Source of the DNA: a candidate division LCP-89 bacterium
GTDB taxonomy: Bacteria; Electryoneota; B3-LCP
NCBI GenBank assembly: GCA_025774735.1
Contig: JALGZU010000424.1
Span: 1-5,525, forward strand
DNA length: 5,525 bases
Reading direction: 5' to 3'
A program made the position numbers and the translations under genes. Below are positions 1 through 5,525 of this stretch, piece by piece (position 1 is the stretch's first letter; each line of letters opens with the position of its first letter). A model generated the notes under the pieces. That model was given only the letters and a program-made list of their open reading frames with translations. It searched no databases and was not told the origin of the DNA.

Positions 1-732
1 GTCTTGATCACCAATGCTCAGGGATTGAGCCTGTTCTCCTTCGGGGGACATGATATGCTCCGGGCTCCGACAGACGTGGCGGTGGATTCGGAGGGACGCA
101 TCTACGTCCAGGTCTCCGAGAACGGTGGCAGGACGGTGAATGTTTTCGATTATAACGGCGATTATCTGGGTCCGTTTCCATTCAAGAATTTGACTCCCGC
201 CTCGGTCCATATCGAGAGCCTGGTGATTGACGATCAGGACCGGCTTTACCTTCTGGACGGGGTGGAAAAGAGGATTCTGGTTTACGACCTTTCGGGAAAT
301 CCGCTTTTTGAATTTCCGCTTTTCGAAGAATTGAGTGAAGAGCTTCGGCGCCAGCAGGTTTTAGGCAACCTGTTCATTTACGGGGAGACGATCTATATCC
401 CTGCAGCAATGCTGGGATCAGTTTACTGCTACGGCAAGGATGGATCACTACTCAGACTGTTCGGTCATCGCGGCAGTGCGTTCGGCGAATTGAGCTTCCC
501 CATCGCCGTTTCCGTTGACGGGCGGGGGAATATGCTGGTTTTGGACAAGAACCGTCACACGATCGTGGGATTCACTCCCGAGGGCAAAGTCCTGGGGGAA
601 TTCGGCGGTCGGGGAGTGGGTTCGGGCTGGTTTTGCTATCCGAATTCCATGCTGGTCGATTCCCATGACCGCATCTGGGTGAGCCAGGTATTCAACAACC
701 GGGTGCAGGTTTTGAACGTCACCGATGAATGA
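1..732 (+). CDS. NHL-repeat six-bladed beta-propeller protein, 5' end outside the window
   Basis: The reading frame is open from the first base and stops with TGA at 730-732, giving 243 visible residues. A TTG at position 4 could be read as a start, but the protein there begins in the middle of a propeller blade, so the gene very probably starts upstream. Five NHL-type blades are visible, each with an aliphatic-Asp-G-x-aliphatic-Y/W/L core: around residues 21-36 (DVAVDSEGRIYV), 71-86 (LVIDDQDRLYLL), 118-133, 161-180 (AVSVDGRGNMLVLD) and 215-230 (MLVDSHDRIWVS). The first 15 residues look like the closing strands of a sixth blade, which fits a six-bladed fold with signal peptide and first strands missing. 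NHL propellers are protein-interaction scaffolds without catalytic residues. It lies 149 bases upstream of the OmcS-like cytochrome on the same strand. I recall an NHL-repeat gene beside omcS in Geobacter, so a role in export, assembly or anchoring of the cytochrome is a reasonable inference, not shown here. Confidence 0.85.
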   Translation, partial: VLITNAQGLSLFSFGGHDMLRAPTDVAVDSEGRIYVQVSENGGRTVNVFDYNGDYLGPFPFKNLTPASVHIESLVIDDQDRLYLLDGVEKRILVYDLSGNPLFEFPLFEELSEELRRQQVLGNLFIYGETIYIPAAMLGSVYCYGKDGSLLRLFGHRGSAFGELSFPIAVSVDGRGNMLVLDKNRHTIVGFTPEGKVLGEFGGRGVGSGWFCYPNSMLVDSHDRIWVSQVFNNRVQVLNVTDE

Positions 733-881: not shown

Positions 882-1943
882 ATGAGAAAAGCACTACTGA
901 TTGGTTTACTGTCCGTGTGTGTACCCCTGCTTTTCGTCGGCACCGCTCTGGCTTTCCACGATGCGGGCGTGGCGCACTGCAACGGCTGTCACACGATGCA
1001 TAACAGCGAAGACGGGGCCCCCGTGGACCCGGACAGCCCCAACGGCAACGCCTGGTTGCTGAAAGATGAGACCCCCAGCGACGTGTGTCTGAATTGTCAT
1101 GCCACCGGACTGGGCGCAGTCTTCGCCGTTGACGAACTCAACCCGTCCCCGCAAAAGGGCGGCGGTAACTTCATCTTCCTGCTGGAAGACAACATCAACG
1201 ACGGTCACAACGGCGCCCTCAACCCGATTGTCGGTGATGCGGCGGGTCACAACCTGGACGCTCCCGGCCACGGCCTGGCTTCCGACGCTACGCTGACCAG
1301 CTCCCCCGGCGGTAGTTTCCCGGCGGGTTCACTGGGCTGCAGCAGCTGTCACGATCCGCATGGAAACGACGATTTCCGTATGCTCCACGGCGTCGGTTCG
1401 GTTCAGGACGACCTGTACACCTTCACCAACGCTGCACCGACGGCTGAAGGTCTTTCGATCTTCTTCGGCAGTGAAAGCAACAGCAACCATACCGCCTACC
1501 AGGGCGGCATGTCCGCCTGGTGCGGTAACTGCCACGGCGATTTCCACAACAACAACACCCAGTTGATTCACCCCTCCGGTTCAGCCATCGGCGGTTCCAT
1601 TGCTACCACATATAACCTCTACAACGGAACCGAGGATCAGACCGGCGGCGATCCGCTGACGGCTTACCTGGCTGCAGTCGCGTTTGAGGATGGCGCGAAC
1701 ACTACCTCCTCGACAGCCGGTCCGACGGCCTCCTCCCAGGTTTCCTGTGTAACCTGTCACCGTGCCCATGCCACGTCCGGTCCGAACGCGGGCCGCTGGG
1801 ACTTCAACGTTACCCTGCTGGAAGAGGATGGTGTTGAATCGGGTTCCTATGCGATTCCGGATCCCTACGCCTCGGCTAACCAGCGTTCGCTGTGTAACAA
1901 GTGCCACAACAAAGACGAGGACGATCACATCGTCACCCCGTAA
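882..1943 (+). CDS. OmcS-like secreted hexahaem c-type cytochrome (putative nanowire subunit)
   Basis: This 353-residue protein opens with a Sec signal peptide: MRK, a hydrophobic stretch, then a predicted cut after TALA (residue 24). It has six CXXCH haem-attachment motifs: CNGCH (33-37), CLNCH (69-73), CSSCH (153-157), CGNCH (214-218), CVTCH (289-293) and CNKCH (338-342). Thirteen further histidines are enough for bis-histidine ligation of all six haems. Blocks match OmcS of Geobacter sulfurreducens as I recall it: mature N terminus FHxxGVAxCxGCHTMHNS, GHN, SSPGG before CSSCHDPHG, GMSxWCxNCH, HPxG, CxxCHRAHA and QRxLCNKCH. In OmcS, polymerised subunits form extracellular filaments with a continuous haem chain. 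The histidine at mature position 16, which in OmcS ligates a haem of the neighbouring subunit, is present. The mature protein (about 329 residues) is shorter than OmcS (about 407), with the loss in inter-haem loops. Codon use is strongly biased (nearly all Asn as AAC), suggesting high expression. A hairpin terminator follows. An in-frame ATG at 756 would add 42 polar residues before the signal peptide and is unlikely. The family call is strong; filament formation is inferred. Confidence 0.9.
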   Translation: MRKALLIGLLSVCVPLLFVGTALAFHDAGVAHCNGCHTMHNSEDGAPVDPDSPNGNAWLLKDETPSDVCLNCHATGLGAVFAVDELNPSPQKGGGNFIFLLEDNINDGHNGALNPIVGDAAGHNLDAPGHGLASDATLTSSPGGSFPAGSLGCSSCHDPHGNDDFRMLHGVGSVQDDLYTFTNAAPTAEGLSIFFGSESNSNHTAYQGGMSAWCGNCHGDFHNNNTQLIHPSGSAIGGSIATTYNLYNGTEDQTGGDPLTAYLAAVAFEDGANTTSSTAGPTASSQVSCVTCHRAHATSGPNAGRWDFNVTLLEEDGVESGSYAIPDPYASANQRSLCNKCHNKDEDDHIVTP

Positions 1944-1994: not shown

Positions 1995-2037
1995 GAAACA
2001 AGTCGGTGCCAGGTTGTGTCAGGCACCGACTTGTTTC
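1995..2037 (+). terminator. Perfect 16-bp-stem hairpin, probable intrinsic terminator
   Basis: GAAACAAGTCGGTGCC (1995-2010) is the exact reverse complement of GGCACCGACTTGTTTC (2022-2037), with an 11-base loop. The upper stem is GC-rich. The lower stem is A-rich on the left and T-rich on the right (TTGTTTCCTT), so the structure could terminate transcription in either direction, though the T-tract is interrupted. Its place 51 bases after the cytochrome stop and before the next gene's signal-peptide start suggests the cytochrome mRNA ends here and the downstream pair is transcribed separately. A dispersed REP-like element is the alternative. Confidence 0.65.
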
Positions 2038-2045
2038 CTTATAAC
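2016..2045 (+). promoter_or_regulatory. Weak sigma70-type promoter candidate for the YVTN gene
   Basis: GTGTCA (2016-2021, 4 of 6 to TTGACA) and TATAAC (2040-2045, 5 of 6 to TATAAT) are 18 bases apart. Transcription would start near 2052, leaving a leader of about 48 bases before the ATG at 2100. The -35 element would sit in the loop and right edge of the terminator hairpin. Such matches arise easily by chance. Confidence 0.25.
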
Positions 2046-2099
2046 GCCCGTATTCCAGGAATGATGGGCCATTCATACAGCGAGGATAAAAAAGTACCC

Positions 2100-3017
2100 A
2101 TGAGATTATTGATCACGATCCTGTTTTTCATCGGCGGGGCACTTTTCCAAGCCCAAGCTGCAGGCACATCCACCGGACGGATCATCATCTATCTGGAGAG
2201 GGCTCAGCAACTCGGGACATCCTTTACCATTCAATTCGACGCCATCGAATTGGTGGGAGAGTATTCCCGCTTGAGTCTGGCTCCGATTATCCGTACGGTT
2301 AGCGGAGGTGTATTATCCCAACGTCAAATACTTCTGGGTGAGGGCAACGCCGAGGCGGGGCGCTACGGGCGTCTGATCCTGAGTGTGCAGGCCCAGATGG
2401 ATGTGCGGAACCCGGCGGATTCGTCCGGGAAGGCGCTATTCTCCGGAGAACTCGAGGTTCCCCTCGAGATTGACGTCTTCAGGGGCGCGGCGGAGACGAT
2501 ATTTCTCCAGATCTCCACGAATCCAGTGGCCTACGACTCCCTGATCGTGAGCGCCCGAGCGATCGAGAAGACGGTTCCACCGGAAACGTCCTTAGCTTAC
2601 GTTTCGAACGAGGAGTCGGGTACGGTAACGGTTATCGACCGGCTGTCGGGTGAGGTGGTTGCTTCGGTTTTAGCCGGCGGCTCTCCCCGGGGTATGGCGA
2701 TTGCCCGGAACCGCGGACTATTATTCACCGCCAACGGGGAATCGAACAGCGTCTCGGTGATCGATATCCGCAATCAGCAACTGCGCGAGGTGATTGCACT
2801 GGATTTCGGCGATTCGCCCGAAGCGCTATGCCTGTCAAGGGGCGAAACCACCCTCTATACGGCGAACCAGGGCTCCAACAGCGTCACCGTGATCGAACTG
2901 GCCTCGCTGCACATCATCAACAAGTTATCCGTGGGGACGGGTAGACATCGCCACCGATCCCTGGAGCGGATCGGTTTATGCGGTCAACAGCCTGTCCGAC
3001 AACGTCACCATTATTAA
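2100..3017 (+). CDS. Exported YVTN beta-propeller protein, N-terminal part of a frameshifted gene
   Basis: The ATG at 2100 begins a clear signal peptide (MRLL, a hydrophobic run, cut predicted after AQA near residue 20), so I prefer it to the in-frame ATGs at 2061 and 2064 or a GTG at 2016 inside the terminator hairpin. The ribosome site is weak (GAGGA at 2082-2086, 13 bases away). Residues 24 to about 160 form a beta-rich domain with alternating hydrophobic strands (TGRIIIYLERA, FTIQFDAIELVGEY) and an AGRYGRLILSVQ segment. This pattern recalls DUF4382-type domains, but only loosely. From about residue 165, YVTN-type blades begin: YVSN..GTVTVID, FTAN..NSVSVID, YTAN..NSVTVIE. After residue 280 (base 2939) the frame leaves the propeller pattern and reads about 25 unrelated residues (RHRHRSLERIG and so on) to a stop at 3015-3017, while the adjacent frame carries the missing blades. 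Such propellers bind partners outside the cytoplasm. The intact product would be about 455 residues, and it precedes the barrel gene. Confidence 0.8.
   Translation: MRLLITILFFIGGALFQAQAAGTSTGRIIIYLERAQQLGTSFTIQFDAIELVGEYSRLSLAPIIRTVSGGVLSQRQILLGEGNAEAGRYGRLILSVQAQMDVRNPADSSGKALFSGELEVPLEIDVFRGAAETIFLQISTNPVAYDSLIVSARAIEKTVPPETSLAYVSNEESGTVTVIDRLSGEVVASVLAGGSPRGMAIARNRGLLFTANGESNSVSVIDIRNQQLREVIALDFGDSPEALCLSRGETTLYTANQGSNSVTVIELASLHIINKLSVGTGRHRHRSLERIGLCGQQPVRQRHHY
2937..2943 (+). other. Frameshift site in the YVTN propeller gene
   Basis: Upstream blades read in one frame up to VGT (gtg ggg acg, ending 2939). The next blade, VDIATDPWSGSVYAVN, reads in the +1 frame from gta at 2941. Sibling blades have 21 residues from the G-containing turn to the YxxN asparagine, with a conserved Pro at turn position 5. 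Here one residue and that Pro are missing, which fits loss of about 5 bases (for example within a GGGCCGG-like stretch). It may be a true mutation or a sequencing or assembly error. Confidence 0.8.
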
Positions 3018-3465
3018 TCCGAGAGACGTGACGGAGGTGAGGACGGTCTCCTGCGGATCCCGTCCGGTGGCTGTGGAGATAGCGTTGCGATCCCGAAAAG
3101 CTTATATCGCCAATTACAATTCCGGCAACATCACCGTATTAGATACTGAGTCTCTCACGGTTGAAGGATGGCTGAACAGTAACCGGTCGATCCGGGACAT
3201 GGCATTGGATCCTTTCTCAGAGATGCTCTATTGCGTCATCGAGCAGTTGAACAGCGTGACACTATTGAAAGAACGGCTGAACATCGACATTGCGGAGATC
3301 CTCACCGAGGCGAGGCCTTTCAGGACCAGTTTCGATCCGGAGCGGAGTTACCTCTACGTGATCCACCGCGAGACGGACAGCGTCACCATTATCAACAAAA
3401 CTTTAAGGCGGGTGCAGGGCAGCATCGCGACGGGTCGAAAACCGTACGCGATCCTGTTTCCCTGA
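2941..3465 (+). CDS. C-terminal part of the same YVTN seven-bladed propeller
   Basis: Read from gta at 2941 in the +1 frame, this 174-codon segment continues the repeats without a gap: YAVN..DNVTIIN, YIAN..GNITVLD, YCVI..NSVTLLK and YVIH..DSVTIIN. With three blades upstream this makes seven, the usual number for a YVTN propeller. The last strand (GSIATGRKPYAILFP, just before TGA at 3463-3465) has the form of a half-blade that would close the ring with the first YVSN strand. A GTG at 3028 could serve as an independent start, but that would begin in mid-blade with no signal peptide, so a separate functional protein is unlikely. There is no CXXCH or catalytic motif. If the frameshift is an error, this and the preceding segment are one complete gene; if it is real, the locus is a pseudogene. 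Confidence 0.8.
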   Translation, partial: VDIATDPWSGSVYAVNSLSDNVTIINPRDVTEVRTVSCGSRPVAVEIALRSRKAYIANYNSGNITVLDTESLTVEGWLNSNRSIRDMALDPFSEMLYCVIEQLNSVTLLKERLNIDIAEILTEARPFRTSFDPERSYLYVIHRETDSVTIINKTLRRVQGSIATGRKPYAILFP

Positions 3466-3509: not shown

Positions 3510-5525
3510 ATGATAGTCAGGCTTTTACGTTGGATTGTAAATTTGTCATTGGTCGGGCTGGCCGTCGCGGAGGTGGGCGTCTGCGGATCAATCAACGGGA
3601 GCGTACGTCTATCGGGCGTCAGCACGGACACGGACAGCAGCCGGGTCGAATCCCTGGATCAGCAGTATTTTCTCAATTACGAGCGAGTTTTACTGCCTTT
3701 CGTCAACCTGCAAGCCTCCCTGCGATACCACGACCTGCAGGCCCGCAGCACCCTCGGTAGTGAAGCCTGGCGGGGCGAAATTCAACCGGCCCTTGATCTG
3801 AACTGGAAGAATCCATTTTTCAGCCTGGGTGCGAACTACCGCTATCGACAGGCCAACGGTCTGGATGTTAACGACGACTATCTATCTCGCAGCGCCGGTG
3901 TGTTCCTGAAAACACGCTTCGTGAGCTTACCACAGAGCACAATCCAGTACACCTGGGATCAGAACACGAACAACGTCAGCTCGGCGTCGCAGACTATCGA
4001 GGAGCGGCGTTTTCAGTACAGCACCAACTACAGTCTCAAAACGGCCTATTTCTATTACAGTTTTATGGATAGAGACGTCGAGAATCTGAGCTCGGGCGTG
4101 CGCGAAGACCTGCGTCAACACGTTTTCCGGGTGGATTATTCGGATCTTTACCTGGGGGGGCGGCTACGGTTTGCCGGCAACTACCTGTTCGACTACTCTG
4201 ACCGGAAGGAATACAGCGGAGAATCAGTGGAGCCTCTAACGACGATTCCGATCATACAGGGACTTTACGTGGAGGACGGCACGCCGGAATTCGGCACCCT
4301 GGACACGCTGGGGACTCTGATCGACGGCAACCTCGCCGAGGCAACGTCGCCGGTCATCAACATCGGGGGCAGTTCCATTCATCAGAACATCGGCTTCGAC
4401 CTGGGCTTGAGCCGGGAGATCAGCGAGATACACATTTATACAGACCGTCTTTCAGGGTCAGCGGTGGACTGGACCGTTTACGTGAGCAGCGACAACCTGA
4501 GCTGGTCACCGCTGGACGGGGGGTCATCATCGCTGTACAATACGACGTTGAAACGATTTGAAATCAGTTTCAGTCCGGAGCAGGGGCGTTATTTCAAGGC
4601 CGTCAATTCCGGGGTCAATCCGGAGCCGTTGGTATTCGTGACAGAAGTGCAAGCTCTGCTGTATTCGGACGTTCAGGATCCCCCGACGCTGAAATCGGAA
4701 TTTCACCGGGTGGATTTGAATGCGTCGATGGAGCTTATGCGCAACCTTCGGTTTACGGCCGGAGCGGGCTACGGATCGGTTCCGGAATATTCCACGGGGC
4801 AGTCCCGACAGGATATAAACGCGGTGGGAACGATTTCTTACAGCCCGACCCGCTATTTCAATTCTGTGGCGCGCTACCAGCATGATTATACGGAATATTC
4901 GACCAGTGCCATCGGCTCTCATGAATCAAAAATCGCTTCATTGACGTTTCTGAGCAATCCGCTGGAAACCATGGAAATATCGCTGTCGGGCTCGCACTCT
5001 CAGAATGATGAAAACGACCTGGAGTCGCAGCGCGTCAGCAGCGGCTTGCTGCACCTTTCGACACTGCTGCTTCCGAATTTATCCTCGATCGCCGAGATCG
5101 GATATACGCATGACGACCGGTCCGTGCAGGATTGGATTACGAACAGCTGGCGATACCGCATCTCATTTGATGCCAAGGTTCTACGTTCTTTGAACATGAT
5201 CGCAGGGTACAGCTTACAGGATTACGATTCAAACCAATCATCCTCGGTAGACCAGCGTGAAGAGGCGGACATCCGGTTCAATTACCGTTTAACCTCGACG
5301 ATTTTCCTGCGCGGCGGTGGGACAATAAGCCGTGAGGACAATCAGCTTGAGGTGTTTCAGGACTACTCGCTGAACTGGAATGCGACTCGCAAGATATCGG
5401 CGAGCGTCTACACGCGTTTGGTGGACAGCAATTCGGGCTATCACACTCAAACGCTGAACGTGCAGAGTCAGTACAATTTAAGCAACCGAACCAACCTCTT
5501 CTTCGGTTACTCGCTGAATCGGATA
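3510..5525 (+). CDS. Large outer-membrane beta-barrel with inserted discoidin-like domain, 3' end outside the window
   Basis: The frame is open for 672 codons from ATG 3510 to the window edge. The start (MIVRLLRWIVNLSLVGLAVA) is signal-peptide-like. No Shine-Dalgarno precedes it, and it lies 44 bases after the YVTN stop, so coupled translation is possible. The rest alternates polar and aromatic or aliphatic residues in about 26-27 amphipathic strands, such as QQYFLNYERV, FFSLGANYRYRQ, TAYFYYSFMDRD, LRFTAGAGYG, IRFNYRL and TNLFFGYSLN. Short turns (LPFVN, KNPF, NPLE, SNRT) alternate with long Ser/Asn/Asp/Gly-rich loops, as in porins. Between strands 11 and 12, residues about 232-394 form an insert. 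Its core (about 281-386) looks like an F5/8 type C (discoidin) domain: NIGFDLGLSREISEIHIYTD, WTVYVSSDNLSW, GRYFKAV and VTEVQALLY. The alternation puts this loop on the cell surface. No haem motif or N-terminal CXXC of MtrB type is seen, so it is not called MtrB although the strand number is similar. It is probably co-transcribed with the YVTN gene. A porin, conduit sheath or export channel are possible roles; the specific one is unknown. Confidence 0.8.
   Translation, partial: MIVRLLRWIVNLSLVGLAVAEVGVCGSINGSVRLSGVSTDTDSSRVESLDQQYFLNYERVLLPFVNLQASLRYHDLQARSTLGSEAWRGEIQPALDLNWKNPFFSLGANYRYRQANGLDVNDDYLSRSAGVFLKTRFVSLPQSTIQYTWDQNTNNVSSASQTIEERRFQYSTNYSLKTAYFYYSFMDRDVENLSSGVREDLRQHVFRVDYSDLYLGGRLRFAGNYLFDYSDRKEYSGESVEPLTTIPIIQGLYVEDGTPEFGTLDTLGTLIDGNLAEATSPVINIGGSSIHQNIGFDLGLSREISEIHIYTDRLSGSAVDWTVYVSSDNLSWSPLDGGSSSLYNTTLKRFEISFSPEQGRYFKAVNSGVNPEPLVFVTEVQALLYSDVQDPPTLKSEFHRVDLNASMELMRNLRFTAGAGYGSVPEYSTGQSRQDINAVGTISYSPTRYFNSVARYQHDYTEYSTSAIGSHESKIASLTFLSNPLETMEISLSGSHSQNDENDLESQRVSSGLLHLSTLLLPNLSSIAEIGYTHDDRSVQDWITNSWRYRISFDAKVLRSLNMIAGYSLQDYDSNQSSSVDQREEADIRFNYRLTSTIFLRGGGTISREDNQLEVFQDYSLNWNATRKISASVYTRLVDSNSGYHTQTLNVQSQYNLSNRTNLFFGYSLNRI

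Follow-up and report, generated by a model that had tools for sequence, protein, structure and literature searches.

The closest described relative of the gene treated here is OmcS of Geobacter sulfurreducens (PDB 6ef8, 6nef), a cytochrome in which all twelve axial haem ligands are histidines, eleven from the subunit itself and one from its neighbor (PMC6584659). In Geobacter, the omcS companion (osc) operon consists of omcS, omcT and oscC (GSU2501), followed by eight genes, GSU2500-GSU2493. OscD has been linked to morphology, OscE-G to secretion and OscH to folding, and GSU2495 is a 26-haem protein (PMC12977616, PMC13194489). The physiological need for OmcS wires is disputed (PMC11077965), and a 2026 paper cautions that sequence does not suffice to call an OmcS-like gene a nanowire (PMC12977616). 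Reports of widespread OmcS homologs, and of an assembly machinery that is both widespread and ancient, have already appeared (PMC10954620; Shen et al. 2025, Cell Chem Biol, going by its title). The question addressed here is that of cytochrome wires outside the relatives of Geobacter, and of their secretion. We examined positions 1 to 5,525 of contig JALGZU010000424.1 of a candidate division LCP-89 bacterium (assembly GCA_025774735.1), a stretch called the window below. We think it probable that its gene at 882..1943 encodes an OmcS-type hexahaem cytochrome heading an osc-like locus, in an uncultured bacterium that falls outside the known Geobacter group, and that the protein works by the filament mechanism proposed below.

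The initial annotation of the window read this gene as an OmcS-family nanowire cytochrome, citing six CXXCH motifs in OmcS order and a series of lineage-specific blocks. The gene and its parts are as follows:

882..1943, + strand: OmcS-family hexahaem c-type cytochrome, precursor of 353 aa (ORF, PDB match, histidines, predicted fold)
882..953, + strand: putative signal peptide of 24 aa, ending TALA (read by eye)
978..992, + strand: haem motif 1, CNGCH (mature residue 9)
999..1001, + strand: codon of His16 of the mature protein, histidine in 59/59 aligned proteins
1086..1100, + strand: haem motif 2, CLNCH (mature residue 45)
1338..1352, + strand: haem motif 3, CSSCH (mature residue 129)
1521..1535, + strand: haem motif 4, CGNCH (mature residue 190)
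1746..1760, + strand: haem motif 5, CVTCH (mature residue 265)
1893..1907, + strand: haem motif 6, CNKCH (mature residue 314)

The six motifs follow the order of OmcS, as had been said, and the blocks are all present (FHDAGVAHC, CHTMHNS, SSPGG...CSSCHDPHG, GMSAWCGNCH, HPSG, CHRAHA and QRSLCNKCH). The in-frame ORF opens at 756, and the ATG at 882 is preceded by AGAGGAAA. Read by eye, this ATG would begin a signal peptide whose cleavage yields an OmcS-type N-terminus. The likeness was also claimed to go beyond a generic multihaem match, and a phmmer search of 177,635 distinct PDB sequences agrees. OmcS (6ef8/6nef) was matched with an e-value of 1.4e-38, far beyond chance, in two significant stretches over query residues 25-311 and a weak third at 329-345. 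The sole other row was an octahaem nitrite reductase (e-value 0.66, not significant). No OmcE entry was found among these PDB sequences at E <= 1 and the protein has six haem motifs; a relation to the OmcE tetrahaem filament is unsupported. Of 7688 database candidates, 2683 match the cytochrome at E <= 1e-3, and the nearest protein among the best 120 of these is P0001, which is 97% identical and lies on a 2152-base contig.

The predicted fold of the cytochrome has OmcS as its single Foldseek match. Because Foldseek returned one chain only for this model, we draw no conclusion from the fact that OmcE and other filaments are missing from the fold list. We aligned the window protein with 40 members of its clade and 18 OmcS-like proteins (59 rows). 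Twelve histidines are conserved in 58 or 59 of the 59 rows, a measure of conservation that does not imply geometry. They are the six CXXCH histidines together with H2, H16, H99, H136, H206 and H272; H2 and H13 are each absent from one row and the other ten from none. All six CXXCH motifs occur in 57 rows and five in the remaining two. H179 and H198 are kept in 41/41 clade rows, but in only 0/18 and 6/18 OmcS-like rows, respectively, and are therefore not ligands of the shared core. We take His16 to be the counterpart of the OmcS histidine that ligates a haem of the neighboring subunit; a literature search on His16 as an inter-subunit ligand gave nothing usable.

Genome contigs yielded 43 distinct loci with relatives of the cytochrome. 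The titles of the metagenome-assembled genomes (MAGs) that carry them name Krumholzibacteriia, Zixiibacteriota, Eisenbacteria, Calditrichota, Acidobacteriota, Gemmatimonadota, Fibrobacteria and Delongbacteria, or simply "bacterium". Relatives were taken from two lists, each showing its best 120 matches (of 2683 and of 4060), from which the alignment drew its 40 and 18 rows. The tree was built from 15 and 22 listed rows, 54 hexahaem genes from the loci and the window (92 rows, none of NrfH or MtrA type). In this unrooted tree the 22 OmcS-like rows split from the window and 69 others on a branch of length 1.13 with full support. Sequence, fold, the twelve histidines and the tree together support membership of the protein in the OmcS superfamily. 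To that extent the initial annotation stands. The extracellular conductive filament that it went on to predict is plausible, and is strengthened by the assembly-type gene set found in relatives.

The neighborhood had been called compact, and the four genes of the window are indeed arranged in a compact layout in one direction (+), with the cytochrome second:

1..732, + strand: NHL-repeat six-bladed beta-propeller protein (Pfam NHL, e-value 2.3e-11), 5' end cut by the window
2100..3465, + strand: YVTN/lactonase-type beta-propeller protein in two frames (ORFs 2016..3017 and 3028..3465)
3510..5525, + strand: large beta-barrel of the outer membrane, into which an F5/8-type-C-like domain is inserted (AlphaFold2 model, Foldseek), 3' end cut

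Gene order in the relatives was determined by tblastn of the window genes, clustering of ORFs and a tally over the loci with room on the contig. The tally was done by tblastn because the ORF calls held antisense artefacts (cluster c7), and each cluster was searched with its own ORFs as queries, same-locus ORFs included. The resulting order is NHL, cytochrome, YVTN (in some loci), large beta-barrel, two CsgG/LpoB-like proteins, a peptidyl-prolyl isomerase (PPIase), a 26-haem and a 16-haem cytochrome. Before its end the window itself holds the YVTN propeller and most of the barrel of this block. Where there is room, the barrel is found in 29/33 loci, a CsgG/LpoB-like lipoprotein in 24/28, a second protein with GNA1162/LpoB/CsgG-like matches in 22/26, a PPIC-type PPIase in 21/24 and a large multihaem cytochrome in 19/22. 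This last protein has 26 CXXCH motifs in 13 of the 16 loci listed, the rest having 25, 21 and, in a cut one, 20. The next multihaem cytochrome has 16 in L004, L011, L028 and L042; other loci end within its gene. Pfam matches of the CsgG/LpoB/GNA1162-type proteins are above cut-off in L022 (a Calditrichaeota MAG). In L025 the first CsgG-like protein is above cut-off for LpoB only and the second has no Pfam match. These genes may serve in secretion. The full block was seen in loci labeled Krumholzibacteriota, Zixibacteria, Calditrichota, Acidobacteriota, Gemmatimonadota and Fibrobacterota. Of all 43 loci, L022 and L028 (a Zixiibacteriota MAG) have the NHL and barrel genes closest to those of the window, with identities of about 50% for NHL and 42-43% for the barrel. 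The barrel is absent from four loci with room downstream (L012, L027, L035 and L040). Three of these, L012, L027 and L040, hold hexahaem paralogs, and the stem after the gene is at most 6 bp.

Most loci carry an inverted repeat just past the cytochrome gene, which in the window is:

1995..2037, + strand: stem-loop with a perfect 16-bp stem and an 11-nt loop, 51 nt past the cytochrome stop, no T-run following

A perfect stem of at least 9 bp lies within 150 nt in 29 of 38 distinct loci, and the mean stem is 10.4 as against 5.3 in shuffled sequence (the shuffles preserved single-base content only). With a barrel within 4 kb, the count is 23/27 (e.g., L004, L008, L022 and L025). The same test after other genes gave 0/17, 0/24, 0/23, 0/21, 0/19 and 1/16. 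Across 571,173 bases there are 35 perfect stems of at least 11 bp, 24 of them no more than 200 nt past a hexahaem gene and 11 elsewhere. CGCCCGG is found in the first arm of 15/27; the window, L022, L028 and others differ in letters with the pairing intact. Because the search demands perfect pairing, this is no independent test of covariation, and the comparison with other genes serves as the control. In 18 of 23 stems the ten bases that follow hold four T or fewer, so we favor a role in stabilizing the messenger RNA or as a partial stop over full termination, and the element could also be a DNA site. A terminator consensus scan did not list the 1995-2037 hairpin, since its 11-nt loop exceeds the limit of the scan and a T-run is lacking. 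No description of the stem-loop was found among the papers listed on osc/CsgG or on stem-loops (none of the latter with omcS), a thin basis for calling it unreported. The stem-loop predicts a subunit transcript in large excess over the machinery transcript.

The AlphaFold2 model of the barrel (pLDDT 88.1, pTM 0.64) forms a tube, in which we count about 27-28 strands, with an inserted beta domain, for which the Pfam match to F5/8 type C (e-value 2.7e-5) is below cut-off. The barrel tracks the cytochrome across genomes and thus offers a second marker beside the cytochrome itself. In the phylum of L003, a barrel match at E <= 1e-20 is present in 20 of the 25 genomes that bear the cytochrome, versus none of 55 others (Fisher 1.5e-14, uncorrected for kinship and genome completeness). 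The e-value cut-offs for co-occurrence were picked after the lists had been inspected. At the default cut-off the cytochrome is found in 26 and the barrel in 24 of these 80 genomes, with 21 genomes in common, and the three weak barrel matches that are left fall in genomes without the cytochrome. In the phylum of L011 the default counts are 13 and 12 of 199 genomes. At E <= 1e-10 the cytochrome is in nine (six weak or partial), at E <= 1e-20 the barrel is in ten, and eight genomes have both. G151 and G153 possess the barrel without a recognized window-type cytochrome, and may hold a more diverged wire subunit.

Hexahaem genes often come in several copies, with one to four cytochrome matches per positive genome in the phylum of L003, some of them fragments. 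A second hexahaem gene lies at the far end of the contig region in L004 (19890-20900), G003:C185:20102-21088 and G053:C153:25518-26477. These are about 52-57% identical to the gene of the window, an arrangement reminiscent of omcS/omcT/oscC.

The mechanism we propose would run as follows. After export the protein would receive six bis-histidine c-haems in the periplasm, where the PPIase of the locus would keep the subunit foldable. Passage of the outer membrane would be aided by the CsgG/LpoB-like proteins and the large barrel. Outside the cell the subunits would polymerize head to tail, with His16 of the N-terminal region completing the haem chain between adjoining subunits. Electrons would cross the periplasm by way of the 26-haem and 16-haem cytochromes and enter the filament at its base. 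The stem-loop would allow the cell to produce a surplus of subunit relative to the machinery. The family, the predicted fold, the histidines, the gene order in relatives and the stem-loop are observed. Polymerization, export route, conductivity and the accessory roles are what we infer, as is a continuation of the window contig like that of its relatives. As a broader and more tentative proposal, which we hold to be possible with somewhat more doubt than confidence, the subunit, chaperone, CsgG-like exporters, barrel and 26-haem feeder would form a complete nanowire factory, a module of ancient origin present in six or more phyla by MAG label, in which an RNA stem-loop right behind the subunit gene sets the ratio of subunit to machinery.

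Several observations weigh against the filament proposal. Residues 1-23 and other loops of the cytochrome model have a pLDDT below 50. The window stops inside the barrel gene, and five of the 25 cytochrome-bearing genomes lack a clear barrel match. An NHL relative lies upstream in 24/36 loci with room and YVTN downstream in 12/33; thus neither is essential. In G044 the stem-loop sits on the other copy. Codon skew is stronger in the window-like copy in 8 of 13 comparisons (ten genomes), no clear difference, and the rare-codon list, an arbitrary E. coli-like set, was not relied on. The match to the osc operon concerns gene order, type and size, taken second hand from the literature, and not sequence.

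The alternative we take most seriously, while judging it unlikely, is that the gene is the counterpart of oscC (GSU2501) and encodes a non-filamentous periplasmic or assembly cytochrome, not a wire. Its position directly before the propeller/barrel block fits OscC as well as OmcS, OscC is listed as periplasmic (PMC13194489), and the further hexahaem copies in many genomes could be the wire subunit. However, all twelve histidines are kept, the putative inter-subunit one included, and conservation is much higher in the cytochrome than in the barrel (over the same 19 loci, identity to the window is 52-73% versus 22-43%). The window gene has skewed codons. It also has its own stem-loop; a stem of at least 9 bp follows 8/10 window-like copies versus 2/12 other copies measured, of 13 fetched (ten genomes). 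Four genomes of the phylum search have a single copy, though they are perhaps incomplete. All of these points would be compatible with an abundant protein that does not form filaments. A porin-cytochrome conduit, in which electrons leave by way of the barrel and the 26-haem protein, with the hexahaem protein as a non-polymerizing terminal reductase at the cell surface, seems to us decidedly improbable. The best Foldseek match of the barrel is a chain of the Mtr complex (6r2q_B, e-value 2.6e-9), which we take to be MtrB, and the 26-haem protein of L022 scores 279.7 against a cut-off of 192.2 bits for the DmsE-type decahaem family. Kinship of the predicted barrel with MtrB is only suggestive. 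A conduit role is one option among others, because other outer-membrane barrels score just 1 to 2 Z lower (OprC 17.0 and FecA 16.4 versus 18.0 for the top match). The CsgG-like and PPIase genes point to assembly, and the hexahaem protein has the OmcS fold and histidines. A generic periplasmic multihaem cytochrome (NrfH, MtrA/DmsE or c7 type) sharing only CXXCH with OmcS is barely conceivable. In its favor, the Pfam and NCBIfam matches above cut-off are to generic CXXCH or c3-type models. Against it, the NrfH (14.2 versus 134.2 bits), decahaem (26.3 versus 192.2 bits) and HmcA models fall far below their cut-offs, and the PDB match through residues 25-311 and OmcS as the sole fold match contradict it at the family level.

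The wire subunit remains our preferred reading. The sequences suggest that cytochrome wires may reach well beyond Geobacter, although what we describe are genes and no filament. A clade that combines the OmcS fold, all the ligand histidines and a set of conserved, assembly-type genes provides concrete genes and MAG lineages for testing. Among the papers listed for OmcS together with these phyla, the word OmcS occurs in only two, both marker-gene surveys (PMC8478452, PMC12501874).

Other features of the window are minor. The YVTN gene matches TIGR02276 (NCBIfam) at e-values of 1.3e-20 and 7.9e-12, and its frame change was located between 2942 and 2944 with the L022 protein as query. It may be a sequencing error, a true break or a frameshift, which one contig cannot separate. 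Scans for RNA families at the gathering threshold and for tRNA found none. A viral or plasmid origin is unsupported: OmcS gave no match in plasmid or viral contig scans, and the 28 pattern matches of the 59-row alignment to viral contigs include no relative.

Among described proteins, the window cytochrome is most like OmcS, with which it shares six haem motifs in the same order, twelve histidines, the predicted fold and a similar mature N-terminus (FHDAG, versus FHSGG in OmcS). It differs in being 41% identical to the Geobacter OmcS row (P0121), in its shorter precursor (353 versus 434 aa, about 80 residues) and in its separate clade. DA_402 of Desulfurivibrio alkaliphilus is likewise OmcS-like, and its authors predict it to be extracellular and filament-forming (PMC12545173). 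Two genes of the relatives' loci resemble the CsgG (curli secretion)/LpoB/GNA1162 lipoproteins, clearly in L022 and weakly in L025. Unlike the osc operon, the window has an NHL propeller gene upstream, and it ends inside the barrel. In the relatives of the window, as in the osc operon, a folding gene and a 26-haem cytochrome belong to the block that immediately follows an OmcS-like gene, and those relatives bearing YVTN fit it place by place, OscD having 473 aligned residues and the YVTN cluster a median of 471.
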